Shown: positions 1-43,676 of the stretch, piece by piece
Numbering within the stretch: position 1 is the first letter of the stretch
Layout of the letters: each line of letters begins with the position of its first letter
Source of the DNA: a virus
DNA: 44,229 nt
Direction: 5' to 3' (one strand)
Virus record (IMG/VR): IMGVR_UViG_3300025000_000182
Coordinates: 1-44,229 of that record
Translations under genes and position numbers: made by a program
Notes under the pieces: generated by a model
The model's input: the letters and a program-made list of their open reading frames with translations, nothing else
Told to the model about the DNA's origin: nothing
The model's database searches: none

Positions 1-127
1 ACAACACCCTTAAGAGTCCTTGCTGTTAACTGAGCTTCCCCTACCGCAGTTGGCCCGAATTTTTTAACCCTGGCTACACTGATTGCAGGACTATATTCAC
101 CTGGTGCAGTTATATTGGCATGGGTGA
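1..127. repeat. Copy of 40222-40348 at the contig start
   Basis: Bases 1-127 are identical to 40222-40348. From 128 the sequence follows the 42740 region instead. The shared TGGGTGA at 121-127 occurs at both 40342-40348 and 42733-42739, so the crossover lies inside these 7 bases. The length of 127 equals a k-mer size often used in short-read assembly, so the contig may begin at a branching node; that is an inference. Confidence 0.9.
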
Positions 128-674
128 CCTCAGAGGTTTTCTTAGCCCTTACCCATCCATCCGCATCGGCATAAATCTGAACAGATGAATTAACCGGTAT
201 TGTGACAAGAGTACCAGTTCCACCTATATCATTGGTTACATCTGCATCAAGCGAGAGTCCACCATTGAACCCGGCTATTGTAACCGGAATTGCAATCGCT
301 GTATCATTATATAATTCAACTGTTAAAATATTCGGTGCTGTTGCACTCCAAGCTGCAACGGCCATTGTCACGGATGTAACTCCCGTGTTAATATGTACCT
401 CTGCGGTCTTGTGTAATGCGCTTGTTATTGGGACAGCACCCGTCCCGGTTAATTGGATCTTAACAAGGGATGCCGCAAGTATCGTCTGAATAGACGCTTC
501 TGTAACCGGCATTGATGGCGTGGACCCGGCAGCACCAGAATTCATTAATGTGCCCTTGTTAACACCATCCGTTATCTCAATCTGATGACCATCTAACGAT
601 TGACCAAGCGTTCCAAATGCCTCTGCCTGAGTCATTCTTACCACTGTACTTACTCCCTCACCCTTCATGTGCAT
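1..674 (-). CDS. Partial fused tail fibre gene (variant form of the locus)
   Basis: This open frame starts at the ATG at 672-674 and runs off the left edge without a stop. Residues 1-184 are identical to the start of the 632-residue fibre protein at 41388-43286. After the 7-bp sequence TGGGTGA (121-127) it continues, in frame, as residues 333 onward of the 444-residue tail protein at 40005-41339. If completed as in that gene, the product would be about 296 residues. Relative to the full locus, bases 40342-42732 (2391 bp, 797 codons) are missing. It is either a real deletion variant in the phage population or an assembly chimera. The exact preservation of frame favours a functional variant, but reads are needed. 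A second possible start lies two codons downstream. Confidence 0.7.
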   Translation of the reverse strand, partial: MHMKGEGVSTVVRMTQAEAFGTLGQSLDGHQIEITDGVNKGTLMNSGAAGSTPSMPVTEASIQTILAASLVKIQLTGTGAVPITSALHKTAEVHINTGVTSVTMAVAAWSATAPNILTVELYNDTAIAIPVTIAGFNGGLSLDADVTNDIGGTGTLVTIPVNSSVQIYADADGWVRAKKTSEVTHANITAPGEYSPAISVARVKKFGPTAVGEAQLTARTLKGV

Positions 675-9567: not shown

Positions 9568-11495
9568 AAATCAATCCTTTTTGCTGCGAGATAACCTGAA
9601 TTTAAGCTGTCTTGATACACAACAATCCCCCCCGTGCTGTCTAAAGCAGACACCGCTATGTTATTATCCGCAATATCCACAAACGCCGTAGATTCAACAT
9701 TGAGTATACAATCCGCCGGGGTGGTTGAACCAATCGCTTTTATTTTATACGCATATGTCTGATCCCCATGGCCAGGGCAGACAAGGCATAGGGTGTCCGC
9801 GTCTGTTTTTGTTAGCCACCCTCCCCCGTAAATCGTATCCGTGTTATGTATGCCCTCAATGACAAGCGTTCTCCTTATAAAAAGCGCTGTCCCTGACCAA
9901 TATCCAAGCACAACAATTGTTTGAGTCGTGGATGATGAATATACTTTTTCCAAGGAGGAAGCTATAAAATAATCTGCCGATAAGGCCACCACACTTGTTC
10001 CAGCCTGGGATTGTCTTATAATAACAGATGTGGACGGGGTGAGCGTTGTCCCGTTCCAAGCAATTTGAATAACAAAAGAACTTCCTGCATTAACAGAAGC
10101 GGCCATGATCATGGATGCCGAATCAACAGCCCCTGATAAAAGATCTAAGGATAGTTGTGTGCCCGCGTTTTTTACTAACGTCTCCGCCGTATTCGCGGTA
10201 ATCTCAGTTCCTGTCCAGTTTAAAATCTGCCCGTATGAATACGTGTTTGCCTTCACGTACACAATGCCTATCTTGCCTGTTGATGCGTGGGGGTATACTG
10301 CGCATACTCGTACATCAGAAATTGAATCCACATCGGCAAACTCATGTGTGTCTGTTAAGGTTAATGTGTCGGTGCCGTTGTATGTCACAGCACAGATGTA
10401 ACCATCTCCGTCCGCCCCGACATACCCTATAATTCCTACCGTGTCAGTCATTCTACAACACGACATGCCAGTGGCATTAGTTGTATCAAATTCCAGAATA
10501 TTTGAAACAGTAATGGCTGGTGTGCCAGGAACCCATGTCAAGACAGCGCAATACCCGTCAGCATCAGTGCCTTTCCATATAACCATGGTTGTAGTTGTGG
10601 TCATTTTGCATTGGGCTATGTCTTCACTTATCATCGCATTTAAAACAGTTTTCACCCGGGAAGAGATTGTCCTTCCAGATACAAGCCAGCTTCCTGCAGC
10701 CGTGGCATTGTCTGCCAAAGTCAATGTAGCCCATTCACCCGGAACACACAAAGCCTTGAAGGCACTCGCAGAATCCAGTACCGTAAAATTATAAGATCCT
10801 GAATTATAAAATACATACCTCCGGCCTTCGGGTAATGTCGTAGCATCAGGGAGGATGACAGATTTGCCGGTTGCTGTCATGGAGATGTTTTGGTAAACGC
10901 TTGAACTTGAAGTAAGGGTGATGTTTGCTGATGCCGATACTGTTGCAAGCGTAGCCGAGGCAGAAAAATCAAGTTTTTCATCGCCTCCAGGGTTAGACAC
11001 TGAAAACGAGACGCTCCCATCGGTTGATACAACTTTTGTGGATAGATATCCTGGGGTTGTATCATTCGCAGTTACTGGCACCCCGGACCCGACCAGGAGC
11101 GCAATTATTGCAGCCTGTAAATCATCTATTTGCGCAAGCAAATTGCCTTTCCCATCCCTGGCTGCGATCACTTCATTCGTGACTGATGCAATATTTGTGT
11201 CCTGGTCCTGCTCTTTGAAAAGAAGGGATGTTTCCCCGTCACGGGCGGCAATCACTTCCGTTGTGGTCACTTGCAATTTATCTATTTGCGCAAGCAAATT
11301 GCCTTCTCCATCCCTGGCTGCGATCACTTCATTCGTGACTGATGCAATATTTGTGTCCTGGTCCTGCTCTTTGAAAAGAAGGGATGTTTCCCCGTCACGG
11401 GCGGCTTCGATCTCCCCGTATAACTCAATAAAATTATCATTTGCGTCTGTCATATCCTGAGACAACAGCCCGTTGATCACATCTTTCCTTGCCAT
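9564..11495 (-). CDS. Tail fibre / tail structural protein with N-terminal repeats, 643 aa
   Basis: The gene starts with a TAATG overlap on the upstream 663-residue gene. Residues 30-130 contain two copies each of two alternating segments (ARDGETSLLFKEQDQDTNIA and ARDGxGNLLAQID), predicted helical and probably a trimeric coiled coil. The rest is beta-rich, with many WNGT, GYVGADGDG and similar loops typical of beta-propeller or beta-helix fibre bodies. It probably sits at the tail base and may be the main fibre. Function is from context and composition. Confidence 0.6.
   Translation of the reverse strand: MARKDVINGLLSQDMTDANDNFIELYGEIEAARDGETSLLFKEQDQDTNIASVTNEVIAARDGEGNLLAQIDKLQVTTTEVIAARDGETSLLFKEQDQDTNIASVTNEVIAARDGKGNLLAQIDDLQAAIIALLVGSGVPVTANDTTPGYLSTKVVSTDGSVSFSVSNPGGDEKLDFSASATLATVSASANITLTSSSSVYQNISMTATGKSVILPDATTLPEGRRYVFYNSGSYNFTVLDSASAFKALCVPGEWATLTLADNATAAGSWLVSGRTISSRVKTVLNAMISEDIAQCKMTTTTTMVIWKGTDADGYCAVLTWVPGTPAITVSNILEFDTTNATGMSCCRMTDTVGIIGYVGADGDGYICAVTYNGTDTLTLTDTHEFADVDSISDVRVCAVYPHASTGKIGIVYVKANTYSYGQILNWTGTEITANTAETLVKNAGTQLSLDLLSGAVDSASMIMAASVNAGSSFVIQIAWNGTTLTPSTSVIIRQSQAGTSVVALSADYFIASSLEKVYSSSTTQTIVVLGYWSGTALFIRRTLVIEGIHNTDTIYGGGWLTKTDADTLCLVCPGHGDQTYAYKIKAIGSTTPADCILNVESTAFVDIADNNIAVSALDSTGGIVVYQDSLNSGYLAAKRIDL
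11140..11407 (-). repeat. Internal duplication in the tail fibre gene
   Basis: The DNA coding the N-terminal helical segments occurs twice, nearly identical over more than 60 bases per element (around 11190-11250 and 11340-11407, with the paired element at 11140-11170 and 11290-11320). The period is about 150 bp. The near identity at synonymous sites indicates a recent duplication. Confidence 0.75.
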
Positions 11496-13486
11496 TACAA
11501 TCCACCTATCCTGTTAGAGTGTAAATTGATTTCCCCAAAATAAAGAGGCTTACCATTCAGAAGAATATCCTCCACCCCGACCATTAATGTCCGGTAATTA
11601 AAGTTGATCCCAGCCCGATCAAAGTATCGCAGTGGGACTGTTGAAAAATCAGCCTCAAGCGTTGGGATATCTGCATCAACAGTGAGTATTTCAGAATCAG
11701 CAGGCAACAGAAATGGAATCGTGAAAAATGATGTCCTGGAATAATCACGGTAGAATTTAAAATTGCAGTTTCCCCCGTACCGCCCAAAAACCCTGTAGCC
11801 AATCTTATATGCTTGAGCTTCTTCAAATACGGTTGGAATAGCAGATGTGATAAATTTATATGTGGCATCGTTCCCATTATCCGTTACCATCGTTTTGTCA
11901 GCCTTGTAAACATTCCCGGCATCCGTTCCCACCAGGAGGAATCCGTCTCCGTGTCCGAAAGCCGTTACCGATCCGCCGAAAGCAAATCTCCATATCCCGG
12001 CCGGGCTATAAGCAGTTGTTTTGCGGCCAGCATATTTGATATCTTTAGCCCTTGCACTCATGGCTAATATATCATTAGTCCCTGCCATCTTCAACAAATA
12101 AACACCCCACTCAGGATCATATCCTGCCACTGCCTCCGATGTGAAAAACTCCTGGATCGTGGATCTGATATTGTCTGCTTGTGATTCTGCCGATATGTCG
12201 GATGATTCCTGTACCGCTGTAATCATATCTATCCCCGAAGGATGAGCGAAAATAATATTATCAGCGGTCACAACGATTGATTTGTAATCACCTGACACCT
12301 TTTGCATGGTCTGGTTTATGGCAAATTCAGTTGGCGTTGTCCCTGATCTTTGCCCCAAGAATGGCTGTCGTGGGGTCCCAAAAACCCATACCCCTTGATT
12401 CCAGGATGCGATCCCTGATATTGGGTAATTTGTTGCAGATGAGTCGATGCAGGCCACATATCCGCCGCCATTTGGAGATGACCAATCAAGTTGATTCCCA
12501 GCATTGCAATACCACATGAAGGAAGGATTCGTTCCTGCCGTGCCTTCGATACAATTCAACCGATCTGCATGGACTATTCCGAACTCAGCTTTGGGTGGCA
12601 TCCCTGGTTTAAGAGAAAGCATTGGAGTCGATGAGTCAACAGCCTTGACGTTAATATAGTTTGAGGCATCCCCTCCGGAATAGGAAAGAACAATCTTGTA
12701 GCCCGTGGAAGGGATCATCTGTGTCGTTACGTCCGCACTTACAAAAATTGCTTCATACTCTTCTCCATCCGTCACGGTCGTTATATTCGCCACGGTTGTA
12801 GAGATTGCCTTAGATGCTATCGTGACACCTCCGGCAGTCTTGACGGTTGCAATTATGGTCCCTGTCGGAGTACCAACCCTATAAAGCTGAGCGTAAACAT
12901 GTGTTGGCGGAATCGTATACCCGGCATCCCATGCCTGCGATGTGAAAGGAAGCTCAACAGTCGTAACGGTCCCGTTTCCTAGCGGTTTGTCAGTCGTAGG
13001 TGTCGATGTTCTTTTATTAACCTGGTATGGCGTTACTGCACCGGTTCCATTATCGTAAAGGATAGATACGGTTGTTCCATCCCAGGCTTTAATAAAAGAT
13101 CCATCAAAGATTATGAGCAGGCCCATAAAACCAACAAACCGGGCCTGCCCTTCCAGGGTTGCAATGGCGGTTGCAGTCCCCGAAATATTGCGATACAGTT
13201 TTTTGTCCGTATCGCTTATAATTGTGTACCATGTTGCCCCGACCTTGATATCATCCACCTGAACAATATTCCCGGTGCATCCTGAGCAAACAAGGGTTGT
13301 GCCGTTTCGTGTCCTCAAAATTCCAGGTCCTACGATGAGCATATTTAAGCATGCAAAAAGTTGTGATTTACTCATCTGTTCCGGTTGGTATTCTGTTACA
13401 AGACCACCCGGCCAAAGGCCGAATTTTATAATTTCTCCCCTTGATTGCGGTTTTGACGCAATGCTTTGTGATAACCTTTCAAACAT
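11495..13486 (-). CDS. Tail hub / P22 gp10-like stabilisation protein, 663 aa
   Basis: A large beta-rich protein directly after the head-tail adaptor gene, which is the position of P22 gp10-type DNA stabilisation proteins. Sequence traits fit a beta-propeller-like hub: many repeated strands with GTAT, FVGFMGLLIIFDG, WNQGVWVFGTPRQPFLG and FAHPSGIDMIT segments. It starts in an ATG overlap with the adaptor stop and ends in a TAATG overlap. Length is greater than P22 gp10 (about 470). The assignment is by order and pattern; a distinct tail tube or nozzle protein is the alternative. Confidence 0.65.
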   Translation of the reverse strand: MFERLSQSIASKPQSRGEIIKFGLWPGGLVTEYQPEQMSKSQLFACLNMLIVGPGILRTRNGTTLVCSGCTGNIVQVDDIKVGATWYTIISDTDKKLYRNISGTATAIATLEGQARFVGFMGLLIIFDGSFIKAWDGTTVSILYDNGTGAVTPYQVNKRTSTPTTDKPLGNGTVTTVELPFTSQAWDAGYTIPPTHVYAQLYRVGTPTGTIIATVKTAGGVTIASKAISTTVANITTVTDGEEYEAIFVSADVTTQMIPSTGYKIVLSYSGGDASNYINVKAVDSSTPMLSLKPGMPPKAEFGIVHADRLNCIEGTAGTNPSFMWYCNAGNQLDWSSPNGGGYVACIDSSATNYPISGIASWNQGVWVFGTPRQPFLGQRSGTTPTEFAINQTMQKVSGDYKSIVVTADNIIFAHPSGIDMITAVQESSDISAESQADNIRSTIQEFFTSEAVAGYDPEWGVYLLKMAGTNDILAMSARAKDIKYAGRKTTAYSPAGIWRFAFGGSVTAFGHGDGFLLVGTDAGNVYKADKTMVTDNGNDATYKFITSAIPTVFEEAQAYKIGYRVFGRYGGNCNFKFYRDYSRTSFFTIPFLLPADSEILTVDADIPTLEADFSTVPLRYFDRAGINFNYRTLMVGVEDILLNGKPLYFGEINLHSNRIGGL

Positions 13487-14139
13487 TATGGCGTGAACCT
13501 CACATCCTGCTTTTGTCTTTTTCTCAGGATTGACATGGCCCGATCTTGAAAGAGTTCCATCAGGGCTGCATCAACCGCCGTGCCGTATCCTTCCCGGTTT
13601 TTTGCTATTATTTTCACTCCTTCCACAAAAGCATTATTGAAAATGTTTTTGAACGGCATTGATGCGGCCACCGTTGTGATACCTGCAAAATTGGGAATAT
13701 ATTTTAATTTTATAGTGTAAACGGCATCGGGAATTGGAAGAAGGCCGATATTGTCCCCCTCTATGTAATAGAAATTCGGCTGACTGTATGCCGTGGACCC
13801 TTTCTCTTGTTCAAGAACGTGGGCCATTCTTTCTTCTTCTTCGCAGATTTCTAATTCTGATAATCCGCTTACCCAAACTTTTAATGGGGCTATCAGATCG
13901 CCCATATCGTTTACTGACAGGTCATAGATTTCTGTTCCGGCAACTGTAACAAAATCACCGGTTCCGGTCTTGATGAGATCGCTTTCATGTTCCGTCAGGA
14001 TATCATGGATGAATTCTGCCCATTTGTTTACATATTCAAGGGTTTCGGCAGCCTCAAATTGTGTTGCGTAAGAGTTCCTTAATTCATAATTAAACCTGGT
14101 GGTCATGTCTCCGACAGTGACTATCCTTGCATCACCCAT
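13486..14139 (-). CDS. Head-tail adaptor (P22 gp4-like position), 217 aa
   Basis: The gene starts inside the end of the preceding 81-residue gene, after GAGGAATTGG. The protein is mostly helical at both ends with a beta-rich middle (VTVAGTEIYDL, FYYIEGDNIGLLPIPDA) and a basic helical C-terminus (SILRKRQKQ). This layout and its position between capsid and tail hub fit a head-completion adaptor that docks on the portal. No catalytic residues are expected. The assignment rests on order and general architecture. Confidence 0.6.
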   Translation of the reverse strand: MGDARIVTVGDMTTRFNYELRNSYATQFEAAETLEYVNKWAEFIHDILTEHESDLIKTGTGDFVTVAGTEIYDLSVNDMGDLIAPLKVWVSGLSELEICEEEERMAHVLEQEKGSTAYSQPNFYYIEGDNIGLLPIPDAVYTIKLKYIPNFAGITTVAASMPFKNIFNNAFVEGVKIIAKNREGYGTAVDAALMELFQDRAMSILRKRQKQDVRFTP

Positions 14140-14377
14140 CCAATTCCTCCTTGAGGATCAAAAAACCATTCTGTTTCACCAATTCTGATCTTGTTTTTAC
14201 TGGCCTAAAAGACCTATCGCATACCAATCTGCGAGACAAAACAACATCCGTAGCTGCCAGCTCTTCACCTGTGAAGAAATCTTTCCCAAGCCTTGTCTGT
14301 CCTGCATAAGCAGTGTTCACAACGCCGGCAGCATCTGCCGTTGGCACAATGATACTGTTTTTATTAACATCATACAT
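14132..14377 (-). CDS. Hypothetical protein after the capsid gene, 81 aa
   Basis: I place the start at ATG 14377 because a near-perfect GGAGGTGA site precedes it; an upstream in-frame ATG at 14410 lacks one. The protein has a small beta-rich N-terminal part and a charged C-terminus (KTRSELVKQNGFLILKEELDG). It overlaps the adaptor gene by 8 bases. In many phages a short gene here encodes a head-closure or minor head protein. I do not recognise the family. Confidence 0.6.
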   Translation of the reverse strand: MYDVNKNSIIVPTADAAGVVNTAYAGQTRLGKDFFTGEELAATDVVLSRRLVCDRSFRPVKTRSELVKQNGFLILKEELDG

Positions 14378-14422
14378 TAAGTCACCTCCGGAAGAGAGTG
14401 CCGCCAACACTCTCGTTCAATC

Positions 14423-15328
14423 TTAAACAGCCGGAACCATGTAAATCTGCCGGGGGTCGTTGCACTCATCACTTGCCCTGTAGGATACCGAAAAGATGGA
14501 ATCACCCGTATCTGGGTCACCATGACGCTGGATAACCGGTTTCTTTCTGTCAAAATGGATCAGGCCCACATCCGGGTCTTTGTCTCCCATGACAAACCAT
14601 CTGCCATCAGTGATTTCGGGTTCAATGTGGAGCTTTAGAGACCGTCTTGTCCGGAGTGTATTGTTCGCATTATACTCATTTTCAGCGACCTGGACCGATT
14701 CCAGGATCTTTGCCATAGTGAATTCATGCGTTGGTCCACAAATGACCGTTTTGGCCTTCTGGTCATAGTTTTTCCCACGGTGGTCAACAATGGATTCAAA
14801 ATTCCTAACCGCCGCTTCAACCGCCGCCGTGGTAGGTGAAGTCGCTGCCATTACATTTGACCACGTGCCCCCGTCCAGCCGGACATGATTGGAGACGCAT
14901 AATGCCAACCCATCGCCGCACGTGTTGTATGTGGTGCTTGTGGCATTCATCAGCATCCGGACCGCTAAAAGGTGCTGTGTTGCGGCCGCTGAAACGCCTA
15001 AGTCGGTCGCTGCCATTTTCATTTTTCCATAGAGGTCGTCTTCAATGGATTCCTCGGTGATCTTGACCGCAAGTGTGAATTTCTTATGATTCCATCTTTT
15101 TGTATGACCCTGGATTCGGGCATCATATGTGTATGGGGTGCCTTCTGGTGTCTCTACGAGATACCCCAAACCAGCCATGGTCATTGATTCCTCGTAAGCT
15201 TTGGTGCTGGCCCTAACCGTAAAAATCTCTTTCCATGTCGGCGTGTGTCTTTTGAAAGACTCCGCCGAAACAGCAAAAAGGCCAGGCACGTATAAATTAT
15301 TAAATCTGCTTCTTGTTTCGGTACTCAT
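14423..15328 (-). CDS. Major capsid protein, 301 aa
   Basis: ATG at 15328 has a strong AGGAGGGG site, as expected for a highly expressed protein. The length and mixed alpha/beta pattern suit an HK97-fold coat protein, with some resemblance to the Mu gpT-like group: helix around TPTWKEIFTVRASTKAYEES, a long spine-like helix near MKMAATDLGVSAAATQHLLAVRML, and a P-domain like stretch (KTVICGPTHEFTMAKILES). It sits after the scaffold and decoration genes and before the adaptor, in canonical order. Confidence 0.8.
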   Translation of the reverse strand: MSTETRSRFNNLYVPGLFAVSAESFKRHTPTWKEIFTVRASTKAYEESMTMAGLGYLVETPEGTPYTYDARIQGHTKRWNHKKFTLAVKITEESIEDDLYGKMKMAATDLGVSAAATQHLLAVRMLMNATSTTYNTCGDGLALCVSNHVRLDGGTWSNVMAATSPTTAAVEAAVRNFESIVDHRGKNYDQKAKTVICGPTHEFTMAKILESVQVAENEYNANNTLRTRRSLKLHIEPEITDGRWFVMGDKDPDVGLIHFDRKKPVIQRHGDPDTGDSIFSVSYRASDECNDPRQIYMVPAV

Positions 15329-15343
15329 TTTATTTTCCCCTCC

Positions 15344-15919
15344 TTATGCTATTGCATCAACATTGTTTTCTTGCCGGAGTTGGTGATTATGGATTTCAAC
15401 CACATATTCACCATTTGCACCCCACTCATTTCCGGGCTTATTTACCGAACCGATCAATCTAAGCTGATCAGTTACTGCACCCGAAACGGCCGAAGAATCT
15501 ATCTCCATCCCCGACAAGTTTGTGGTTGTGTTCCCGGCGTGTGTGATCTTTATGTTCACGGTTCCGCCAACATTCGCTTGTGTCAAAGACCCGCTGCCAT
15601 CACACTGTGCCACATACCTTTGCGATGGAGCATCTGCCACTAACGCAATCCAATTATAAATGGAGCTTGCTGGGTAATAACCACCGGCCTTAATCCCTCC
15701 ATTAATGCTCTCAAATCCAACTATTGCACCAAGTATTGGGTTGGCGGTTCCGGCAGTTGCTTTGACGATGTATCCGCCTGACAGGGCCACCATGTCACCG
15801 ATGTAAAGGGCGGTTGCGTATGGCGTGCCCTCACTGCCCTGAATCCTGTACGGTGTTGGGGGTCTAACAGCTACCCCGTTTAAAAGCGAAAATCCATGAG
15901 GATTATCCATGTTTGACAT
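15344..15919 (-). CDS. Probable head decoration / capsid-associated protein, 191 aa
   Basis: A Gly-, Ala- and Thr-rich protein with many short beta strands and an opening of the kind MSNMDNPHGFSLLNG, followed by Pro-rich PTPYRI. It has a good AAGGAG site and lies directly upstream of the major capsid gene. Proteins of this kind in tailed phages of similar layout are annotated as capsid decoration proteins or structural proteins of unknown place. No enzyme motif is visible. Confidence 0.6.
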   Translation of the reverse strand: MSNMDNPHGFSLLNGVAVRPPTPYRIQGSEGTPYATALYIGDMVALSGGYIVKATAGTANPILGAIVGFESINGGIKAGGYYPASSIYNWIALVADAPSQRYVAQCDGSGSLTQANVGGTVNIKITHAGNTTTNLSGMEIDSSAVSGAVTDQLRLIGSVNKPGNEWGANGEYVVEIHNHQLRQENNVDAIA

Positions 15920-15933
15920 TTTTCTACTCCTTA

Positions 15934-16491
15934 TTAAAAGTCATTTTTTTCTCTCTGATATCCGATCGACTCCGCTATGGTGTCAATCTCACCAGCATTA
16001 AAAATTGGTCCTGCGCTCTTTTCATCGATCATACTGACAGAGCCTTCGACCGCTCGTTCTCTTTTGCTCGTAATTCTGTTGGTTTTATCGTTGTAATGTT
16101 TGACAATGCTCGCATGCTCAAGCTCCATCGCCTCTCTATAACAAAAAGCAAGAATGTTTTGCCCCTTGTATAGGATACCTCCTGATGCATCAAAAACCCT
16201 GTCAGGGGCATGGCTATGATTGTTCCTATTGACAATCTCCCACTTCGACCCATTGATACTGTACAGATCATCTATGGATAGCCAGGCATAAGCGTACTCG
16301 TTCCCCCTTGAGACTCCTTCCGGAATTGCCATCTCGATTTTCCGGTAAAGCTCATTGACATCTGTGATCTTCGGAGGTTCTTTCCTGGCTGATGATACAT
16401 ACCCTGAAACCCTCTGTTGTAACGGTGAAAGCTTCGATTGTTCTACGACTGGGTGTTCAGGGAGTGTGGTTCCCTTGGCTTTATCATTCAT
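15934..16491 (-). CDS. Hypothetical protein between scaffold and decoration genes, 185 aa
   Basis: The start overlaps the scaffold gene stop (TAATG). The protein is soluble, with a Pro-rich N-terminus (PEHPVVEQSKLSPLQQRVSGY) and a central part with aromatic residues and Asn/His (WEIVNRNNHSHAPDRVFD). It ends with charged residues. No protease catalytic triad can be claimed. I do not recognise it; a head-assembly role is inferred from its position only. Confidence 0.55.
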   Translation of the reverse strand: MNDKAKGTTLPEHPVVEQSKLSPLQQRVSGYVSSARKEPPKITDVNELYRKIEMAIPEGVSRGNEYAYAWLSIDDLYSINGSKWEIVNRNNHSHAPDRVFDASGGILYKGQNILAFCYREAMELEHASIVKHYNDKTNRITSKRERAVEGSVSMIDEKSAGPIFNAGEIDTIAESIGYQREKNDF

Positions 16492-17471
16492 TATTTTCCC
16501 CCTCTCGGCATTGCTGCCAAAGTCTTTGCATACACATCATCCGACAGGCCAAATTTCCTTGCTACATCTTTTTGCGCTGATGTTAGCGTCGTTGAAACGT
16601 CGGTTGACTGTTTCCCGCCAGTGTGCATAGCGCTGACTGCAACCCTGTCTTTTCTCGCGGACTCATCAGCCTTGACCTTTTCGGCTTCGGCTTGCTGCGC
16701 TTTAACTTGCTGTGCAGGTGCGAATGCAGAAAGATCAATTTGTCTCTCCCTTGCCTGCCGTTTAAGCTCTCGTACCGCCCGGAAAACGCCATCCGGTTTA
16801 GTGTTGAATTGGACCTTCGGATCATAATAAATATTTGCAAAAACCTGCCTGATATTCGGATCTGTCAATGCCGGTAACTCTTCACACTCATCGGCATAAT
16901 CTTTCTGATGGATCGCCTGAATATTCGAAACAGTTTTCTGTTGTTCCATCTGTGCGATGGCTTGTTCCTTCTCGGATGTAAACTCCTTTAGGCGCTCTCT
17001 GTAATCGATGACAGAATTGGTACATCCTTCATAGTCATCTTCCCACTCGGCAGCGGTAAACGTCGGCTTCTGTGGGGGCTGCGGTTCAGCTTCTTCGATT
17101 TTCGGTCTAACAACCGTTTCGGTCAAGGCTCGTACCTGGTCAACCAGGGTTTCAATTTGAGCGTCCTTTTTTCCCAACATGGCGATGGTTTCATTCCATC
17201 GCCTTTCTGCCGGGTCGATTTCGGCCTTTGTTTCAGGTGCCTTATCCCCTTGCTCTGTATCGATCTCAGGCTCTTTTTTCTCGACGGATGCTATATCCTT
17301 ATCGGGCTCTTCTTTTTTTACATCTACCGCCGCTGTGATATCAACATCAAGCGCTATCGACTTATCGGGCGCTTCCTTTTCTGTGGGTTCCTCGATATTC
17401 GGCGCATCGTTGAACCCTCCCATAACCGGTTCATCATCTAACAAAAATAATGTTTCCCTATCTCCCGCCAT
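16491..17471 (-). CDS. Scaffolding-like protein, 326 aa
   Basis: An acidic, low-complexity N-terminal third (EPTEKEAPDKSIALDVD, EPDKDIASVEKKEPEIDTEQ), a helical heptad-rich middle (TIAMLGKKDAQIETLVDQV and EFTSEKEQAIAQMEQQK) and a basic, helical C-terminus. This is the typical pattern of phage scaffolding proteins, whose C-terminus contacts coat protein. It lies between portal and capsid genes, as expected. It has an AGAGGA ribosome site. Sequence homology to a named scaffold cannot be shown by eye. Confidence 0.7.
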   Translation of the reverse strand: MAGDRETLFLLDDEPVMGGFNDAPNIEEPTEKEAPDKSIALDVDITAAVDVKKEEPDKDIASVEKKEPEIDTEQGDKAPETKAEIDPAERRWNETIAMLGKKDAQIETLVDQVRALTETVVRPKIEEAEPQPPQKPTFTAAEWEDDYEGCTNSVIDYRERLKEFTSEKEQAIAQMEQQKTVSNIQAIHQKDYADECEELPALTDPNIRQVFANIYYDPKVQFNTKPDGVFRAVRELKRQARERQIDLSAFAPAQQVKAQQAEAEKVKADESARKDRVAVSAMHTGGKQSTDVSTTLTSAQKDVARKFGLSDDVYAKTLAAMPRGGK

Positions 17472-17475
17472 AGCT

Positions 17476-17721
17476 TTAGTCCTCTTTAATATTGCGTTTA
17501 TAAAAAATCATCTTTGCCATCGATTCAAAATGCTCTCTCACGGCAGACATGACCGTCTCTTTTTCCTGGTTATCAGGCATGGAATTTTTAATCCTGGTTA
17601 CTAATTCCCGCATTGCCTCTGCTTTCGTAAATGCCTCTGCCCTCACCGCCTCATCAGTATCAAACACTGATGTCATGCTGTAATCATCGTGATGTTGTAA
17701 AATTATTTTTAAAATATCCAT
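17476..17721 (-). CDS. Hypothetical helical protein, 81 aa
   Basis: I choose ATG at 17721, preceded by AAGGAA with 6-base spacing; an upstream TTG at 17742 also lies in frame but has no such site. The protein is helical and charged (EAFTKAEAMRELVTRI), without Cys or membrane spans. It lies 26 bases after the portal stop and 4 bases before the scaffold-like gene. No family recognised; a head-assembly accessory role would fit. Confidence 0.55.
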   Translation of the reverse strand: MDILKIILQHHDDYSMTSVFDTDEAVRAEAFTKAEAMRELVTRIKNSMPDNQEKETVMSAVREHFESMAKMIFYKRNIKED

Positions 17722-17747
17722 CGCAATTTCCTTATCCGCCAAAAGGT

Positions 17748-19781
17748 TTAATTATTATCAAGGCCGCCAACCTGTTCAACGACCCTGCCTATCATTTTCC
17801 GCTTGAAACCCTCATTCGCCCGGTCAACGATTTTCTTGTTTTCATATGGCGCCTCAACTTCTCTTTCGATCTGTTGCCGTTCAATATTATTTTCTGCCTG
17901 CAACCTTACTTGTGACTGCCTATCTTGCGCCTCTTTTTGCTGCATACCCTGTTGCACAATCTGCATTACCTGTTGCTTGAGTTCCGGAACTGCGGTCAAA
18001 GCCTGCATGATCATCGCAAATTCCTGCGACACATATTTGTCAACGTCTTTTTTCCCGAACGCCCGGTACAAATCTTGTGTGTTCTCGACCTGGTTAATCC
18101 AGGGCATTCCCTTTGTGATGTTCATCAGGGTGATAGCATCATTCCGGTTTGTCATTGAATTCGAGGACGCATCCGAAACATCGACACGCAGATCATACCG
18201 GCCCTGTAGCGCCTGGACATTTACCGGCTTGAACACCCACTCGTTTCCCTTAAAAATCCTTATCTTTGCGGACATTGGTATGTTTTGTGCATACAGGCTC
18301 AAGCAATCTGTGAGCAACTCTGAAAAATCATCCTGCAATCCCTCTCCGGTATAATTATGCTTGATATTCCCCTCTTGGAGGATCATGTTCATCCCGCTCG
18401 CTGTATCTCCGCCCTGGCCGGCTGTTGAAGATCTAGTCCCGGCTGAATAATCCATCAGGGACAAAGTGCGCTCAAAGAACGTTAAAAGCAGGTTAATAAA
18501 ATTGATATATGCCCCTGACTTATCCGCCAGGTTCGGGAATGTTACATTGGCATCTTTCGGGATAGCATTGCCATACCCCGGCTGTAGTTTGAATTTTTTA
18601 TTGCTCGTGATCCCCGTAGAATTGGAGTTATAAAAGAAAAACGGGCTGTTTGTCACTGTGCCGCAATCAATCATCTGGTTATAAAGATCGTTAATCCCGG
18701 TATCAAAATGGATTGTCTTTTTGGGAACACCTGTGCCCATACTCTCGTTCGATTTTGGATAAATCCTAAACCGCTTTATCGGTTTCCGGCTATGCCAATA
18801 GATGTCGGATATCGGTTGATTCCGAACCTCTTTCCAGTTCGCATCGAGAGAAAACGTGGCCAATCTCCACTCACCTTTCCAAATCAAGTAACACTCAATC
18901 AGCTCGCACTCCTGGCCGTAATCTGAATACTGGACAGCCTTCCGCTGTTCGTCTTCTGTCTCTTGGCGCTTGACCCCCTTAACCATCGAATTATCGATAT
19001 CTTTGTAAACGCCTTTTTTTTGCAGCTCTACCAGATCCCCCAGCTTCGGATAGATTTTTCTCAGGAATGGTTGATCATCCCAGTTATCATTGTGATCAGG
19101 GAAATAACAATCTTCGATTTTCAGGGCTTCCAGGTGGACCTTGAAATCCAGCTCGGTTTTTTCCCTGACCCCCTCCTCAGAACCTCCTGGCATTATACCC
19201 ATCTGCATCAACTGAGCCATCAGCTCCTGCGGATTCCCGCCTTGCATAAATCCAGCGGGCGGCTTAACCCTGTTGCCCTGTAAATCTGTAAAAATCGGGA
19301 CTGTCCCACGGCTTTTGATCACGATCTCTTTTTCCTGCCACATCGGGATTACATGCTTGGTGCCATCCATCAATAAATCGTGTACGATTGGCTTTACAGC
19401 TTTTTTGATGTGCATATTGTTGTGGCATGCCCATTGCAAAAACTCCTTGACCTCTTTAGCCAAATCAACATCTTCAGCACCGGTGGGCGTTACCTGAATA
19501 AAATCATCCTCTGAAACCAATTTGTTAAAAATCCTTGGCTCTAAATTATCGACAGCAATGGCGGTTAGGCTCATCGATTTGTTTGAGCACCCTTCCCAAG
19601 GGAAATTTTTTGCGATTCGATCGGTATCATACCGCTTGCGCCCCTCATTGATCTCATCGAGTTTGCGCTTCCTATATGCGCTATCATACTCAATATATAA
19701 ATTTTGGCAGTGTGTTGCAATAGCCGACATCGTTGCTGTATCATGATACTCATCTTCTTCGAGTTTTATCTGATCTATCAT
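17748..19781 (-). CDS. Portal protein, 677 aa
   Basis: The length (677) and features suit podovirus-type portals, which form the dodecameric ring for DNA entry. Seen in the sequence: an early helical region with RKRYDTDRIAKNFPWEGCSN, a middle stretch with KIYPKLGDLVELQKKGVY, a segment with MDYSAGTRSSTAGQGGDTASGMN near residue 450, and a long Gln-rich helical C-terminus (QQVMQIVQQGMQQKEAQDRQ), typical of portal barrels. The gene follows the terminase region and precedes scaffold and capsid genes. It starts in an ATGA overlap. Confidence 0.75.
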   Translation of the reverse strand: MIDQIKLEEDEYHDTATMSAIATHCQNLYIEYDSAYRKRKLDEINEGRKRYDTDRIAKNFPWEGCSNKSMSLTAIAVDNLEPRIFNKLVSEDDFIQVTPTGAEDVDLAKEVKEFLQWACHNNMHIKKAVKPIVHDLLMDGTKHVIPMWQEKEIVIKSRGTVPIFTDLQGNRVKPPAGFMQGGNPQELMAQLMQMGIMPGGSEEGVREKTELDFKVHLEALKIEDCYFPDHNDNWDDQPFLRKIYPKLGDLVELQKKGVYKDIDNSMVKGVKRQETEDEQRKAVQYSDYGQECELIECYLIWKGEWRLATFSLDANWKEVRNQPISDIYWHSRKPIKRFRIYPKSNESMGTGVPKKTIHFDTGINDLYNQMIDCGTVTNSPFFFYNSNSTGITSNKKFKLQPGYGNAIPKDANVTFPNLADKSGAYINFINLLLTFFERTLSLMDYSAGTRSSTAGQGGDTASGMNMILQEGNIKHNYTGEGLQDDFSELLTDCLSLYAQNIPMSAKIRIFKGNEWVFKPVNVQALQGRYDLRVDVSDASSNSMTNRNDAITLMNITKGMPWINQVENTQDLYRAFGKKDVDKYVSQEFAMIMQALTAVPELKQQVMQIVQQGMQQKEAQDRQSQVRLQAENNIERQQIEREVEAPYENKKIVDRANEGFKRKMIGRVVEQVGGLDNN

Positions 19782-20491
19782 CCGCCATATCCCTCATGCT
19801 TGTTAGGATTATACTCAGTTTCGGGGCGCTGGTACGGGCTTATCACATAGCTCATGATGATGTGGTTGAACGCATTGGCAGCCGGGTATTGCTCCCATGG
19901 CCTGGCACTTTTTATATCAGACTTGCCCGCAGCTTTGAAATCCCTGGTTATCTTGCAATCCCCTGGCCATCTGCCCTTCTCGGGCTGGCTCATGACTTTA
20001 AATGCACCTGGTATAATCAAAATCCCCTGATGCCCGTAATCGTCGAGCGGCGCTTTTGCCGCCTCAAAATTTGCATAGCTCGAATCAAAACCATCAAAAT
20101 CGGATGCATCATACAGGCCAACCGTATCGACTCCAAGCCGTTGTACTGCGTGCTCAAAATCCATCTCGGAACTCTCGAAAGCCTTTGAACAATCAGCGTA
20201 AACTCGCTCACATTTAAGGAGACGCATATCTTTGCATAAAGATGTAAAAAGCCTCCGCTGATCCTTATCTTCGCACTCAACGAGGAGTTCGAGCGGCCGC
20301 TTAGCCCTGTGAGTAACCACGTTTTTTAACCCAAATATGCAATAATAACCTGGGTTGTTTGCTGTTGGGAAAGTCATGCCAGCCCGGCGATCATTATATA
20401 TATCAACAATAGGGGCATACCCTATCCTCTCGGTTTGTCGGCATAGCCTGTGCTCATCCGTGTAGTATGATATTTTTGCGTTATTAGTCAT
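19778..20491 (-). CDS. Hypothetical protein between terminase and portal genes, 237 aa
   Basis: A soluble alpha/beta protein with four or five Cys residues and many Asp/Tyr (YDASDFDGFDSSYANFEAAK). The ribosome site before ATG is weak (AAGGCTAAAAAAA). It ends in an ATGA overlap with the portal gene, so the two are translationally coupled. No nuclease motif such as HNH is visible. I do not recognise the family; a DNA-packaging or head role is suggested only by place. Confidence 0.55.
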   Translation of the reverse strand: MTNNAKISYYTDEHRLCRQTERIGYAPIVDIYNDRRAGMTFPTANNPGYYCIFGLKNVVTHRAKRPLELLVECEDKDQRRLFTSLCKDMRLLKCERVYADCSKAFESSEMDFEHAVQRLGVDTVGLYDASDFDGFDSSYANFEAAKAPLDDYGHQGILIIPGAFKVMSQPEKGRWPGDCKITRDFKAAGKSDIKSARPWEQYPAANAFNHIIMSYVISPYQRPETEYNPNKHEGYGG

Positions 20492-20556
20492 TTTTTTTAG
20501 CCTTTGTTAACATTGCCTCCCGGCCGGAGACACATACTACTGTAAAAAACCTCAAT

Positions 20557-22089
20557 TTATGCCAACCCCGCATAAAACAGGGACGCTGACGGATCGTGGA
20601 ATGATAGGCATAAGGCATCCAGCCTGTTTGGTGATGGCACACCCCTTGCTCTCATCACTTGCTTACTCTCCACCCCTATCTTGCCAGCTCCGGTGTTGAT
20701 CCGCTTTGGCCTGCTGATCTCGGATATCAGATCCGGATCGTTGCACATCTTAATACAAAGCTCATCCGGGTGATTTTTGATCCCGTTTGCTCGCTCATAC
20801 GTGCGCTCAAATCTACGGCGCAGCGACCACATATTTTTTGCCCGGATGTTTGCAAAAAGATCTGAATTGAGCCGCTCGGTATCCTCGTACCTGCCGGGCA
20901 GATCGGTTGATGCGTTATGCACACCTACATGGCTCAATACCTCGTTGCTCAGTGCATCCAGGCTCTTAAGCTCGCCCTTGATCCCCGCGCCGACCCCGGT
21001 GGCATCGTATACCAGGAGTGATATTCTTTTATCCAGCGCCTCGGCCCTTGCCTCCCTGGCCGTCTCTGTGGTATCTCCCTTGTGCCAGTGGCGGCAGGAC
21101 TCAACAACAACTCCGTGTCTGATCACAAGCGCCTTGCCATCCTTGCCCTCATCATCGGGATCAAGGCCCATCTGCCGGATGCCGGACGGCTTGATATCGA
21201 TATTGATTGCAGCCTGCACCCATTTGGCTGGTATAAAAACCCCCTCTACTGATGCCGCGTAATCTCTATCGATTTCTTGGGCGAAAATGTGCTCTAAGCC
21301 CTCAGCCACGGCCTTATCACGCTTTTTATCGTACCATTCCTGGGTTTTGCGGGGATCATCTCGCCAATCGTGGACAAAAACCCTAACAGCCCCGCCAAAC
21401 CTGCGGCGGTGGAATATGTTGCCCTCGCCGTTGACGCTCGAAATGTCAACCTGGCAATCGGTGTTTTCCGAGAGTGCTGCTTCGATCATCTCCGGGCGCT
21501 CATAATGCGCAGCCTCATCCTTAAAATAGATCGTTGTCCGGCCACCTCGGCCAATATTGCTTCCGGCCTCCCCCACAATCGTTGAGCCGTTAGCTGGATG
21601 CAAAATCCTTAAAAACCCGGCGTGTTGGCGCTCAGAGTACCCGGCCGGGCGGAACTCTACAGGCAGGTTGCGGATGATGATCCTGATTTTTTCGAGGATC
21701 GAATCCGATACCCCTAATCGATCAACAAGATCCTCCTTGCGTGATCCAAACCCGATGGCCTGGCCCGGGTAAAAAAGCCAGCGGTGCACTGCCCAGGCGC
21801 ATGAGCACCATGTATATCCGCCATCCCGCGCTTTTTCGACCAATCCGCTATCGCGCTCGGTTACCAGCTCTGTTAGCCAGTTAACATATTGGATTTGTTT
21901 GGGAAATAGCGCAAATGGCATGTATGGTCTTGGCTGCCGTGGATCGTAGGTTACCATCCACCCCGAAATAAAATCAGCTGGCCTGGTGGCGTAATAACGG
22001 CAAAACGCAGCATGTATCACGCCTGATTTATCCTCTCGGATAGCCTTGAGCACCTTGAGGCGGTTGATCATGATCCTATCCGAGTACAT
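20557..22089 (-). CDS. terL: Terminase large subunit, 510 aa
   Basis: The DNA-packaging motor ATPase and nuclease. Near residues 86-93 the sequence KARDGGYTW fits a terminase Walker A variant (R-D-G-G-Y-T). A Walker B follows (TIYFKDEAAH, catalytic Glu about residue 192). The C-terminal RNase H-like nuclease has GLDPDDEGKD, then DATGVGAG, then RLDALCLSFHD, with acidic residues as expected. I take the ATG at 22089, which overlaps the small-subunit stop and has AGGAG upstream; an upstream in-frame start would extend it by 13 residues. Confidence 0.85.
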   Translation of the reverse strand: MYSDRIMINRLKVLKAIREDKSGVIHAAFCRYYATRPADFISGWMVTYDPRQPRPYMPFALFPKQIQYVNWLTELVTERDSGLVEKARDGGYTWCSCAWAVHRWLFYPGQAIGFGSRKEDLVDRLGVSDSILEKIRIIIRNLPVEFRPAGYSERQHAGFLRILHPANGSTIVGEAGSNIGRGGRTTIYFKDEAAHYERPEMIEAALSENTDCQVDISSVNGEGNIFHRRRFGGAVRVFVHDWRDDPRKTQEWYDKKRDKAVAEGLEHIFAQEIDRDYAASVEGVFIPAKWVQAAINIDIKPSGIRQMGLDPDDEGKDGKALVIRHGVVVESCRHWHKGDTTETAREARAEALDKRISLLVYDATGVGAGIKGELKSLDALSNEVLSHVGVHNASTDLPGRYEDTERLNSDLFANIRAKNMWSLRRRFERTYERANGIKNHPDELCIKMCNDPDLISEISRPKRINTGAGKIGVESKQVMRARGVPSPNRLDALCLSFHDPSASLFYAGLA

Positions 22090-23699: not shown

Positions 23700-23882
23700 A
23701 TGAAAATGGAGATGAGGCAGGATCTGGTGTCGGCGGAGGAAGTCAAATCTTTTACGATCCGGCAGTTACCGGAGAAAACTCACCGCCGGGCAAAAGTAGA
23801 AGCTGCCCGGCAGGGGATCTCTATGCAAGACTTTATCATCAGGGCTATTGAGTTAGCCCTGGAAATAGCCGAAAAATCATAA
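23700..23882 (+). CDS. Ribbon-helix-helix regulator-like protein, 60 aa
   Basis: ATG at 23700 follows AAAAGGAGAAGAAATC. Residues 16-60 fit an Arc/CopG-type ribbon-helix-helix: strand with SFTIRQLPE, then helix KTHRRAKVEAARQ, the turn GIS, and helix MQDFIIRAIELALEIA. Such proteins form dimers that bind DNA palindromes. Here it is the last gene of the small early group, ending beside a strong terminator. The operator-like sites at 22545-22689 are possible targets, but no data link them. Confidence 0.75.
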   Translation: MKMEMRQDLVSAEEVKSFTIRQLPEKTHRRAKVEAARQGISMQDFIIRAIELALEIAEKS

Positions 23883-27574: not shown

Positions 27575-30136
27575 CTACATTCCTGATTCCGAAACAATAC
27601 CGCCCTTCTGAAACAGGAGCGAGTGATCGGCCATGGCCTGGCACTCCGGAATATGAGAAATGAAAAACAGCTTTTCAAAATGCCCCTGAACCATCAAGGC
27701 CCGGTACATCTGGATAAACCGCTCTGCTTTTTCTTTATCCAGGGCTCCGGATTCTTCATCTGCAAAGCAGGTGGCAAAATGAATACCGGATTTTTCGGTA
27801 TTGACCAGGATCTGAGCGGCTTTGAACGCTTGTAATATCCAAACCGATTCCCCTCCTGAAAAGTCACAAAGTGAATATGATTGCCCATCTCCACGGGTGA
27901 TCATAATATCCAGGACTTCCGCACCCGTTTCCGGGTCCTGAGTGATCAGGTCCAAATAAAATTCCCCCCCATATGCCGCATGGAGGAGGTCATTTGCAAT
28001 ACCGGTCAAAAGGGGAGCTGCCGCCGAAATTTCAAGGGCTTGCAATCCGGATTTTGAAACAGCATCCCGGACATATGCCCATTTTCCAATTTCTTCACGG
28101 ATAAACGATTCTCGCAGTTTTAACCGGGTTATTTCTTCGATGTCTTTTTTCGCTGCCATTGCCTTATCTTCAAGGACAGCAATCGTTTTTTCGATATCAG
28201 AAACAACCTGTATCGATACTTTTAGGGATAACTGAGCAATCCGGATGCCTTGTTCTGTAATATCAATATCGATATTGATATTTTCTTGCGTCCTGGCCGG
28301 TGTGGACATTATCACATCTAATGATAGGGGTGCGGCTTCTGATTCAAGTTTCACGATCTTTGTCCTAAAATCAAAATCTCTTGATGCGAATGCCTGATTT
28401 CTTTCCTCAATAGATGTTTGTAATAAGGCTATTTTTTGTTCTGCTAAATCCATTTCTGATTTTTTCATAGATAGGATTTCGAGCCGGGAAATTTTTTCCG
28501 GAATTACTGACTGTTTTAATTTGAGTTCCGTATAACCAGACAACAGAGAGTCTTTCCTCTTTTCAAGCTTTGTCATTTCGGTCAAAAGCTCGGTCTCTTT
28601 TTTATTCAAATCCTTCCTTTTTTGGTCGCTCTCGGCCGTAAGGGTGTCTTTCTCACAAGCCACTGATTTAATAGTCATCACGGCCTTATTAAGAGAGGCG
28701 AATATTTCTTCTTTTTCATGTTCGGCAGCTAAAATCAGCCCCTTGTTTTTTTCAATAGCATCAGCTATTTCTTTTTCCTTCGCAGGCTTCATGCCTATTT
28801 TATCAAACGCATTTTTGATAAACGGACAGGCATCAATTCCACAACCATCCGGGCGGAGAGCCAATAAGGATTCCGCAGCTTTAAATTGTTCAAGGTCTTT
28901 TCGCAGGGCTTTAATTACCGGGTCATCCCCCAGGGCTGCAAGTTTGATATTAATGTCTGCAATTTTCCGTTCCGTTTCACTTTTATCGACATTGAGCAAT
29001 TTTGTATACTCGACAATCCCCTTGAGTACCGGATCATTATCTAACCCGATCCGATCCGATTTTAGATTTACGAGAGCAAGATATATATCTGAGAGTTTTT
29101 CTTTATTAACTGTAGCTTCAATTGATACCGCCTCTATATCAGCCGCAAGGGTGGATTCTTCTTTCATGAGTTCGGCAATCGTCCGTTCCGCAGAAAGAAT
29201 TTCTTCTTTCTGATCTACCAGGCTTTGCAGGGGAAAAATTTCTTCCTCTTTTGAATCAATCCAGTCGTTATGTTTCCGGCTGGATTCTAACATCTCCGCC
29301 TTGAGAACAACAATCTGATCCGCAATTGCAGAAAGCTGCTTCCTTTTTTCAGTCAAAACAGCTTCTTGTTTTTGTACTTCTGCGGATTCTCTTTGGAGTG
29401 TGGCCAATTCTTCCTGACCCAAAGATACCTTCTTTTCTCCCTCAGAAATTTCCGCCTTTTTAACATCAAAGGACGCTCTGTTTTCCGCCAATGATGTTGC
29501 ATTCCTGGAAATTTCATCTTCCCTGGCTGAATAATATTCCAGATCCCGAATAACTTCCGAGAGCGCCCCCTCACATTCTTTGATACAAGCCCCGGCATTG
29601 TGCCAGTATGTGGTGTATTTTTCAAGACCCAGGAGTTCAATCAAAAGCTGCTTGAACTCTCCGGTCTTGAGATCTGTAAGCTTTTTTCCGCCCTGGCAGC
29701 TAAAAATGGACGAATAGAAAAGGTCCTCTGAACCAAATAGTTCAGACACCTTCTTTTTATATTCGCTGATTTTTCCCTTAACGACAGGCACACCGTCGCA
29801 ATAAATATAACCTTCCGGTGACATGGTTGTTCCTGCCGGGATCTCAACCCGGAAAACATATTTTTTCCCTTGAAAGAGATAGCAAACTTCTTTATAGCTA
29901 TCCCGAAGCCGGAACTGCTTTTTGAAATTGTACTTTTGAGGGTTTTTCTGTTGCCTGGATGGGAATACTGGGAACGGAGAAAGCAGCTCCATGAATGTCG
30001 TTTTCCCCTGTCCATTATTCCCAGCCAGGTTAATCAGGCCAGAAAGATTTTCAAAGTTTACAGCGATCTCATCAACTCCGAGACCATAGTGAATGCCAAA
30101 ACTTCCTTTCACTTTTATATATTGCAAATTTGCCAT
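27575..30136 (-). CDS. sbcC: SbcC/Rad50-like ATPase, 853 aa
   Basis: The N-terminal ATPase part has Walker A GNNGQGKTT (39-47). Long coiled coils follow (many Glu/Lys/Leu heptads between about 170 and 700), broken near 430 by CGIDAC, a Cys-pair hook that is wider than the usual CxxC. The C-terminal lobe holds the signature SGGES (near 760), Walker B with FADEESGALD (near 793) and the H-loop FFISHIPE. The start ATG overlaps the SbcD-like stop. With the SbcD-like nuclease it probably processes DNA ends for recombination-dependent replication, as T4 gp46/47 do. Confidence 0.9.
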   Translation of the reverse strand: MANLQYIKVKGSFGIHYGLGVDEIAVNFENLSGLINLAGNNGQGKTTFMELLSPFPVFPSRQQKNPQKYNFKKQFRLRDSYKEVCYLFQGKKYVFRVEIPAGTTMSPEGYIYCDGVPVVKGKISEYKKKVSELFGSEDLFYSSIFSCQGGKKLTDLKTGEFKQLLIELLGLEKYTTYWHNAGACIKECEGALSEVIRDLEYYSAREDEISRNATSLAENRASFDVKKAEISEGEKKVSLGQEELATLQRESAEVQKQEAVLTEKRKQLSAIADQIVVLKAEMLESSRKHNDWIDSKEEEIFPLQSLVDQKEEILSAERTIAELMKEESTLAADIEAVSIEATVNKEKLSDIYLALVNLKSDRIGLDNDPVLKGIVEYTKLLNVDKSETERKIADINIKLAALGDDPVIKALRKDLEQFKAAESLLALRPDGCGIDACPFIKNAFDKIGMKPAKEKEIADAIEKNKGLILAAEHEKEEIFASLNKAVMTIKSVACEKDTLTAESDQKRKDLNKKETELLTEMTKLEKRKDSLLSGYTELKLKQSVIPEKISRLEILSMKKSEMDLAEQKIALLQTSIEERNQAFASRDFDFRTKIVKLESEAAPLSLDVIMSTPARTQENINIDIDITEQGIRIAQLSLKVSIQVVSDIEKTIAVLEDKAMAAKKDIEEITRLKLRESFIREEIGKWAYVRDAVSKSGLQALEISAAAPLLTGIANDLLHAAYGGEFYLDLITQDPETGAEVLDIMITRGDGQSYSLCDFSGGESVWILQAFKAAQILVNTEKSGIHFATCFADEESGALDKEKAERFIQMYRALMVQGHFEKLFFISHIPECQAMADHSLLFQKGGIVSESGM

Positions 30137-31470
30137 TATTCCACCTCTCTTTCTTTCTCAATTCCGTTAACGATTTGTGCCGGTTTGTCCTGATTAAGCC
30201 GTGTTTGACAGTGTTTAACCAGGTCAGCAAGGTTAAGATTCTCTAAGTTTTCAAACAGATCTAAAACCCCTTCCGGGACCGGTTGACTTCTGTGGTTTGC
30301 GAGCGCTCGGACCTTATCTATCAGCGACACCGCCTTGATAATCCCCTCGTCCCTTGAATTTTCCCGCCGCACCCGGTCAATTTCCAAGATAACATTATCT
30401 GCACCGGCTTCTTTGATCGCCTGTTTCAGGGCGGATTGATTTATTCTCCTAATATCGTCTATCCAGAGTGTGATTTTTACCTTTGCCCAGTATCCTGGTT
30501 TCTCCTGGCCGCCGCTGTCGAGGATGTCAGAAACAACAGTCTGGATAAACTCCCTGTCCAGGATCGCTGGATCAGAGACACAATTATAATTGACCTGAAT
30601 CATTTCCCGGGTGGGGGTCTGGATGAACTCATGCCGGTCGGGTTCGTTGTCATCGCAGATATCATGTATGTAAAAGCCCTTGGCTTGGCCCTGCTCTCCA
30701 AAATCTTTCCGGAAAATTGATCCGGCGTGGAATGCTTTTTTCCCGGATGGCATGTCATAACCCTGAACCATGTGTATATGGCCCAGGAGGCATATATTCG
30801 CCTGAGCCATAGAAAGAGTTTCGGTATCAATAGCAATGTCCGTACCGGGGAGGGTTTGCGTTTCTGAAATTTTTGATCCCTTCATTGAAAAATGGCCGTT
30901 CAGGACGTGCGGTACTCGTGGAAATTGTTTTGCTGCCTGCCCGAACCCGGCAAAGATGGAACCCATGGCCTGGGCGATGTTCTGATTATCAGCTTCTATC
31001 CCCTGTCGGTTTTTCCAGAATTCTTTTGTTGGGGCTGGAATTTGTGTTACGGCAAGGATTATCTGCCCGGACGGGACGTATGTATCCTTAACCCATTCAT
31101 AGGCAATTTTGTCCCGATTTCTTTCAAATTGCCGGAGATAAATTTGCTCCGGTTTTGTGCTGACATAAATTGGGTTTTTCCCGGAAACATATTTCAAAAT
31201 CTCCGGTGTCTGTCCGTCGTGGCTTGGGGTCCCGACCACAACGGCAACCGGTGCGATATTTGATAGCCGTCTGAACTGATCGGCTATCGTTTTTGCTGAT
31301 TTGGTGTCAGTTCCAAGATATTGGCTGTTCGTCACGTCCCCGGAGCAAATGATCACATCCGGGCGTTTCTGTTCGGCCACGCCGATCATATATTCCATGC
31401 AGTTTTTTATTTCATCATGATTCTTTTCCTCATAATGCACGTCTGCAAAATGCAAAATGCTTGCTCCCAT
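30136..31470 (-). CDS. sbcD: SbcD/Mre11-like nuclease subunit, 444 aa
   Basis: A calcineurin-like phosphoesterase. Metal-binding motifs are seen in order: FADVHY (8-13), GDVTNS (44-49), GTPSHD (80-85, where most relatives have GNHD), NGHFS (191-195) and GHIHM (230-234). The C-terminal part is helical and may bind the SbcC coiled coil. Start and stop both lie in TAATG overlaps, so it is tightly coupled to its neighbours. The missing Asn in the GNHD box is odd, since that Asn is usually a metal ligand; the His and Asp are kept. Confidence 0.85.
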   Translation of the reverse strand: MGASILHFADVHYEEKNHDEIKNCMEYMIGVAEQKRPDVIICSGDVTNSQYLGTDTKSAKTIADQFRRLSNIAPVAVVVGTPSHDGQTPEILKYVSGKNPIYVSTKPEQIYLRQFERNRDKIAYEWVKDTYVPSGQIILAVTQIPAPTKEFWKNRQGIEADNQNIAQAMGSIFAGFGQAAKQFPRVPHVLNGHFSMKGSKISETQTLPGTDIAIDTETLSMAQANICLLGHIHMVQGYDMPSGKKAFHAGSIFRKDFGEQGQAKGFYIHDICDDNEPDRHEFIQTPTREMIQVNYNCVSDPAILDREFIQTVVSDILDSGGQEKPGYWAKVKITLWIDDIRRINQSALKQAIKEAGADNVILEIDRVRRENSRDEGIIKAVSLIDKVRALANHRSQPVPEGVLDLFENLENLNLADLVKHCQTRLNQDKPAQIVNGIEKEREVE

Positions 31471-33679: not shown

Positions 33680-33853
33680 ATGAAAAAAGCTATGAAAGTG
33701 TTGCCCGCAATTTGGATCGTGACCGGAATCATTTTAGTGACAGGTGAGGCAAATGACGCTAAAAGCCAGTTGCTATTAGCCGTCATCGGCGTGATGGTGG
33801 CGTGTGTCGGCGGGTATTGGTTTTCTTATCTCTGTGAGAGAGATGATGAGTAA
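33680..33853 (+). CDS. Two-span membrane protein, 57 aa
   Basis: ATG at 33680 follows directly after the solenoid-gene stop, with an AAGGAG site. Two hydrophobic stretches (VLPAIWIVTGIILVTG and LLLAVIGVMVACVGGYWF) are joined by a short polar loop (EANDAKSQ), so an inner membrane hairpin is likely. The C-terminus is acidic (CERDDE). It overlaps the helicase gene by 11 bases. No family is known; it may anchor a neighbour or affect the membrane. Confidence 0.6.
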   Translation: MKKAMKVLPAIWIVTGIILVTGEANDAKSQLLLAVIGVMVACVGGYWFSYLCERDDE

Positions 33854-35534: not shown

Positions 35535-35551
35535 AGAGGGGGATTGTGTCC

Positions 35552-35896: not shown

Positions 35897-35959
35897 ATAT
35901 AAGGAGGAAAAAATGAAAAAGGTTTATGTTGAGGGTGTTGGTGATGTCGATGTTAGAAT
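35864..35959 (+). repeat. 96-bp duplicated leader, copy 1
   Basis: Identical to 36637-36732, starting at CAATTCCGGACA. It contains the end of the 114-residue gene, the AAGGAGG ribosome site and the start of solenoid gene 2. A 42-bp partial third copy lies at 37734-37775. Confidence 0.9.
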
Positions 35960-36689: not shown

Positions 36690-36732
36690 AAAAGGTTTAT
36701 GTTGAGGGTGTTGGTGATGTCGATGTTAGAAT
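36637..36732 (+). repeat. 96-bp duplicated leader, copy 2
   Basis: Identical to 35864-35959. It fuses the end of solenoid gene 2 to the start of gene 3. The first 12 bases (CAATTCCGGACA) also occur in many 54-bp repeats, where they are followed by CGCTG instead of AACTTG. A crossover at this 12-bp microhomology would produce exactly this tandem arrangement. Confidence 0.9.
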
Positions 36733-41339: not shown

Positions 41340-41387
41340 TTTTACTCCTTATAAGTAGGGTGACTTAATGCCACCCTATTGATTATG

Positions 41388-43286: not shown

Positions 43287-43289
43287 CTC

Positions 43290-43668: not shown

Positions 43669-43676
43669 ATTATCCT

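Follow-up and report, generated by a model that had tools for sequence, protein, structure and literature searches.

A fibre-gene fusion at a 7-bp microhomology as the short allele of a tail fibre-type locus in an uncultivated podovirus-like phage

In-register deletions that join two neighbouring fibre genes, ltfA and ltfB, have been described in the T5-like phages DT57C, DT571/2 and DT530 (PMC4728585). The fusion in DT530(1) is crippled; the one in DT571/2-ABF, in which LtfA 1-663 is joined to LtfB 288-767 by a spontaneously arisen deletion of about 2.1 kb, is functional and has changed host use (PMC4728585). There are long direct repeats between ltfA and ltfB, and the deletion in DT530(1) has been attributed to recombination between identical sequences (PMC4728585).

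Here, we describe a comparable locus in the IMG/VR record IMGVR_UViG_3300025000_000182, which is listed as linear and of which all 44,229 bp were analysed (the window). As in the case of ltfA and ltfB, one form of the locus consists of two adjacent co-directional genes, while the other is a single ORF with the N-terminal part of the first followed by the C-terminal part of the second. The systems differ in three respects. In contrast to the long direct repeats between ltfA and ltfB, only 7 bp are shared here and the flanks are identical at 12 of 40 bases. Moreover, the ltfA-ltfB fusions come from laboratory stocks or selection, whereas the fusion reported here belongs to a podovirus-like uncultivated phage known from sequence. 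Finally, the proteins are unrelated to LtfA and LtfB by the searches run. A second comparison is with host-range mutants of phages, in one of which a deletion fuses neighbouring genes and in another of which it hits a tail fibre gene; however, the fused genes in the former are not fibre genes, and in the latter the fibre gene is broken by a premature stop. Fibre-gene fusions of this type have already been described for laboratory phages; the present one is of the same kind, in a wild, unrelated phage and with shorter homology.

The long and the short allele of the fibre locus

The long allele comprises two adjacent genes on the minus strand and in the same frame, both of them complete with a start, a ribosome-binding site and a stop. 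The upstream gene (41388-43286) encodes a protein of 632 amino acids that matches PHROG tail family 17517 and whose residues 304-404 form an F5/8 type C (discoidin) domain (Pfam PF00754, E 2e-9). The downstream gene (40005-41339), preceded by the ribosome-binding site AAGGAG, encodes a protein of 444 amino acids. Self-comparison of the window revealed that the short allele lacks the 2391 bp from 40342 to 42732. The heptamer TGGGTGA, which in the long allele is present as a downstream copy (40342-40348) and an upstream copy (42733-42739), occurs once at the short-allele junction (121-127). Because the net loss equals 3 x 797 bp, it is divisible by three, and a minus-strand frame at 3-674 stays open across the junction to the window end. 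This frame holds the first 224 codons of the fused gene, which leaves the window at its start; the complete gene is present in other IMG/VR records (L004 1105-1995 and L005 6001-6891). The fused protein of 296 amino acids consists of residues 1-184 of the 632-residue protein and residues 333-444 of the 444-residue protein (184 + 112), i.e. the deletion is in register and links the N-terminal part of the upstream gene to the C-terminal part of the downstream gene. Thus, the proposal of a preliminary description of this DNA that two adjacent fibre-type genes are fused in frame at a microhomology of 7 bp is confirmed to the base, with exact coordinates and on the same strand and frame.

The same description held that the short form lacks a discoidin-like and a C1q-like part. 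The former is borne out, since the carbohydrate-binding-type PF00754 domain lies within the lost part; the latter is unconfirmed, with no C1q-like part recognised by Pfam, PHROGs, PDB sequences or NCBIfam. The 444-residue and the fused proteins match no informative family in Pfam, PHROGs, NCBIfam or the phage collection. AlphaFold models of the 444- and 296-residue proteins have pLDDT values of 31 and 37, respectively, which is too poor to judge the folding of the fusion. The two genes lie next to a lysozyme-like gene and a weak match to holins, and the phage carries an SU10-type portal and adaptor and is therefore podovirus-like. We infer that the proteins of the fibre locus function in the virion, most likely as a receptor-binding appendage. 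The short allele would then encode a fibre reduced to a minimum, with altered binding, and an effect on host range or adsorption is plausible.

The short junction in other viral records

A 28-base sequence spanning the junction, searched against 2.9 million viral contigs, is present in two further IMG/VR records, and a search with the fused protein returned the same two. IMGVR_UViG_3300001242_001209 (4,786 bp) matches the window at 100% identity across the junction and along either flank, over 1661 bp towards the leucine-rich-repeat gene and 3135 bp towards 37214; because of this identity, the two datasets may derive from the same site or sample. IMGVR_UViG_3300024999_000384 (24,449 bp) crosses the junction without a break and represents a slightly different strain, with six nucleotide and two amino acid differences in the fused gene and further SNPs in patches elsewhere. 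Compared with the window, this strain has a mosaic structure: it is nearly identical near the fibre locus, and identity drops to 97-98% farther from it. In both records, the 296-residue ORF is intact (two residues differ between them), and the short form sits internally in place of the long form and continues into 40348-37069. The join is the same across 90 bases in all copies. Because the same join is found in two strains and is surrounded by strain-specific SNPs, a single shared library chimera is ruled out. Doubt over the reality of the short form is largely settled, and the objection that only rare chimeric reads carry the junction is answered indirectly, since two further records have the junction and one of these stems from another strain. 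The short allele is, as far as these sequences tell, almost certainly real and naturally occurring.

The short form had been regarded as a derived minority version, a view that the public records turn around as regards frequency: both of the other records covering the locus, few as they are, have the short form. The 2.4-kb segment is absent from both, and its peptides matched no other viral contig in IMG/VR. Of the two alleles, the short one has thus been recorded more widely and the long one in the present record only. The best explanation is that the allelic pair coexists in one population of this uncultivated podovirus-like phage.

Other loci in the window also stand out. The leucine-rich-repeat-like protein encoded at 1065-2630 is built from 69-bp units; in 3300024999 the array (L005 4969-5369) is shorter by 207 bp, i.e. 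three units, and contigs break here, so that its copy number may be strain-variable or misassembled. At 32987-37783, three related repeat genes with an 18-residue motif (IPDTLVNLTTLYAHSAEA) are open on both strands and contain long near-identical tandem blocks, at which contigs from other datasets break. In the 3300024999 strain (L006 and L009 against 9604-21491), the region around 9.6-10.9 kb is unalignable or less than 80% identical; it lies in the gene for a 643-residue protein, which suggests that this may be a second variable appendage gene. At 23700-23882, the window encodes a small protein of the ribbon-helix-helix type that resembles FitA/HicB-type antitoxins (PF22513, PF05534), next to an ORF of 145 amino acids without a family match.

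Origin of the two alleles

Based on these data, we suggest a model in which the two forms are alleles of one fibre locus and the short one was generated by a microhomology-type deletion; taken as a whole, we regard this model as likely. In this model, the long allele with its two co-directional genes (632 and 444 amino acids) would be the starting state. An in-frame deletion of 2391 bp between the two copies of TGGGTGA, by short-homology (illegitimate) recombination during replication, would give one gene for 296 amino acids with loss of the discoidin-like domain and the remainder of the segment. The short allele would have arisen once and then spread, and a single origin is what we infer from the copies at hand.

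Loss is the probable direction of the change. It requires one event and is simpler than gain, because the long genes are each complete with a ribosome-binding site and their base composition resembles that of their neighbours; specifically, the GC content and the codon-position GC of the 2.4-kb segment resemble those of the neighbouring genes. A 7-bp overlap is expected at a blunt random join with a chance of about 4e-4, and its rarity indicates short-homology recombination. TGGGTGA itself was rejected as a special site: there are about 170 direct matches of at least 7 bp between the two genes, 89 of them in frame and some longer than TGGGTGA. Because such matches are abundant, the site needs no special property, and the keeping of the frame could be due to chance (one in three) or to selection. 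Extended homology at the breakpoints was likewise rejected, as the identity of the flanks is about that expected by chance; the repeat search found no repeat longer than 7 bp at the junction and no long flanking repeats bracketing the segment. Insertion of a transposon with a 7-bp target duplication was discarded, since the segment has no terminal inverted repeats at its ends and no transposase.

The phage has recombination enzymes of its own, as an SbcC-like and an SbcD-like protein are encoded at 27575-32504, followed by a 344-residue protein that matches phrog_13782 only and has no match in the phage collection. This region is a possible recombination module; that its SbcC/SbcD-like proteins are linked to the fibre deletion is only a guess.

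The polarity of the change could also be the reverse. As the long form is found in a single record, it could be the derived one: the short gene would be ancestral, and recombination with another phage would have added a module of 2.4 kb, dividing a single fibre gene into two. The short form is indeed the sole form in the two other records covering the locus, and no relative of the segment turned up in IMG/VR. However, the incoming segment would have had to supply a C-terminus with its stop, an intergenic region with a ribosome-binding site and a matching N-terminus, and also to fit the frame at both ends with a 7-bp duplication; moreover, its GC content is the same as that of its neighbours. 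We therefore consider a gain of the segment unlikely. Outgroups were sought in three places: neither the fibre locus nor a homologue was seen in the relatives identified by the major capsid protein (L011-L013 and L021), the bacterial genomes searched contained no outgroup fibre locus, and a search of 50,697 phage records yielded no more than a weak discoidin match, to the Erwinia phages RisingSun and Joad.

The idea that the deletion acts as a phase-variation switch is not supported. The genes scanned by Pfam included no recognisable site-specific recombinase or invertase, the repeat search found neither matching inverted nor long direct repeats that could serve as recognition sites at the breakpoints, and TGGGTGA is one of the roughly 170 matches described above. 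The loss of 2.4 kb is irreversible without a donor and can be restored from another genome only. A population-level version, in which selection, e.g. by hosts with different receptors, maintains the alleles side by side, homologous recombination exchanges them between lineages and the loss and regain of the segment thereby amount to a switch in receptor binding, is in our view doubtful.

Contig start and genome form

In the deletion model, the start of the contig would be the assembler's trace of the branch between the short and the long allele at k = 127. The first 127 bases (1-127) equal 40222-40348 in a match that is exactly 127 bases long and is followed by divergence; we read this stretch as the branch k-mer of the assembly graph from which the short-allele path starts out. 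The contig later runs into itself: 121-1617, which is common to both alleles, is identical to 42733-44229 over 1497 bp with no mismatches. A start of exactly one 127-mer that recurs in the same contig, together with a 1.5-kb stretch used twice, fits what we take to be a SPAdes-type path with k = 127 from a branch vertex. The origin of the contig start at a k = 127 graph branch, raised in the preliminary description, is thus supported by the exact 127-base match.

The window therefore closes on a 42,612-bp circle, the exception being bases 1-120, which lead into the common stretch from another side, namely by the join without 40342-42732 and with TGGGTGA at the junction. In effect, the record represents a complete genome that is circular and measures 42,612 bp with the long allele or 40,221 bp with the short one. 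Its listing as linear and its 1,617 bp of excess length result from the short-allele junction at 1-120, which masks the terminal repeat.

A single contig end with microhomology at a k-mer boundary has the look of a chimera, and a chance join keeps the frame one time in three. However, two other records, one of which belongs to a different strain, have the junction contiguous with both of its flanks, and the fused edge at k = 127 requires 120 distinct 128-mers, of which one 150-nt read yields at most 23, so that several reads must lie behind it; an artefact of chimeric reads or misassembly is accordingly very improbable. It is just as improbable that a true linear genome carries both fibre versions together within terminal repeats of about 1.5 kb, as the direct repeat of 1497 bp at the ends of the contig might suggest, because in two other records the short form takes the place of the long one within the contig and runs on into 40348-37069, and the stretch at the start is exactly one k-mer long.

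Thus, a contig end that resembles an assembly fault can record true variation within a population, and an end of this kind can conceal that a genome is complete and circular. For the phage itself, the finding means that a fibre-gene fusion of a type known from laboratory stocks occurs as a standing allele in phage DNA from the wild, in several metagenomes.
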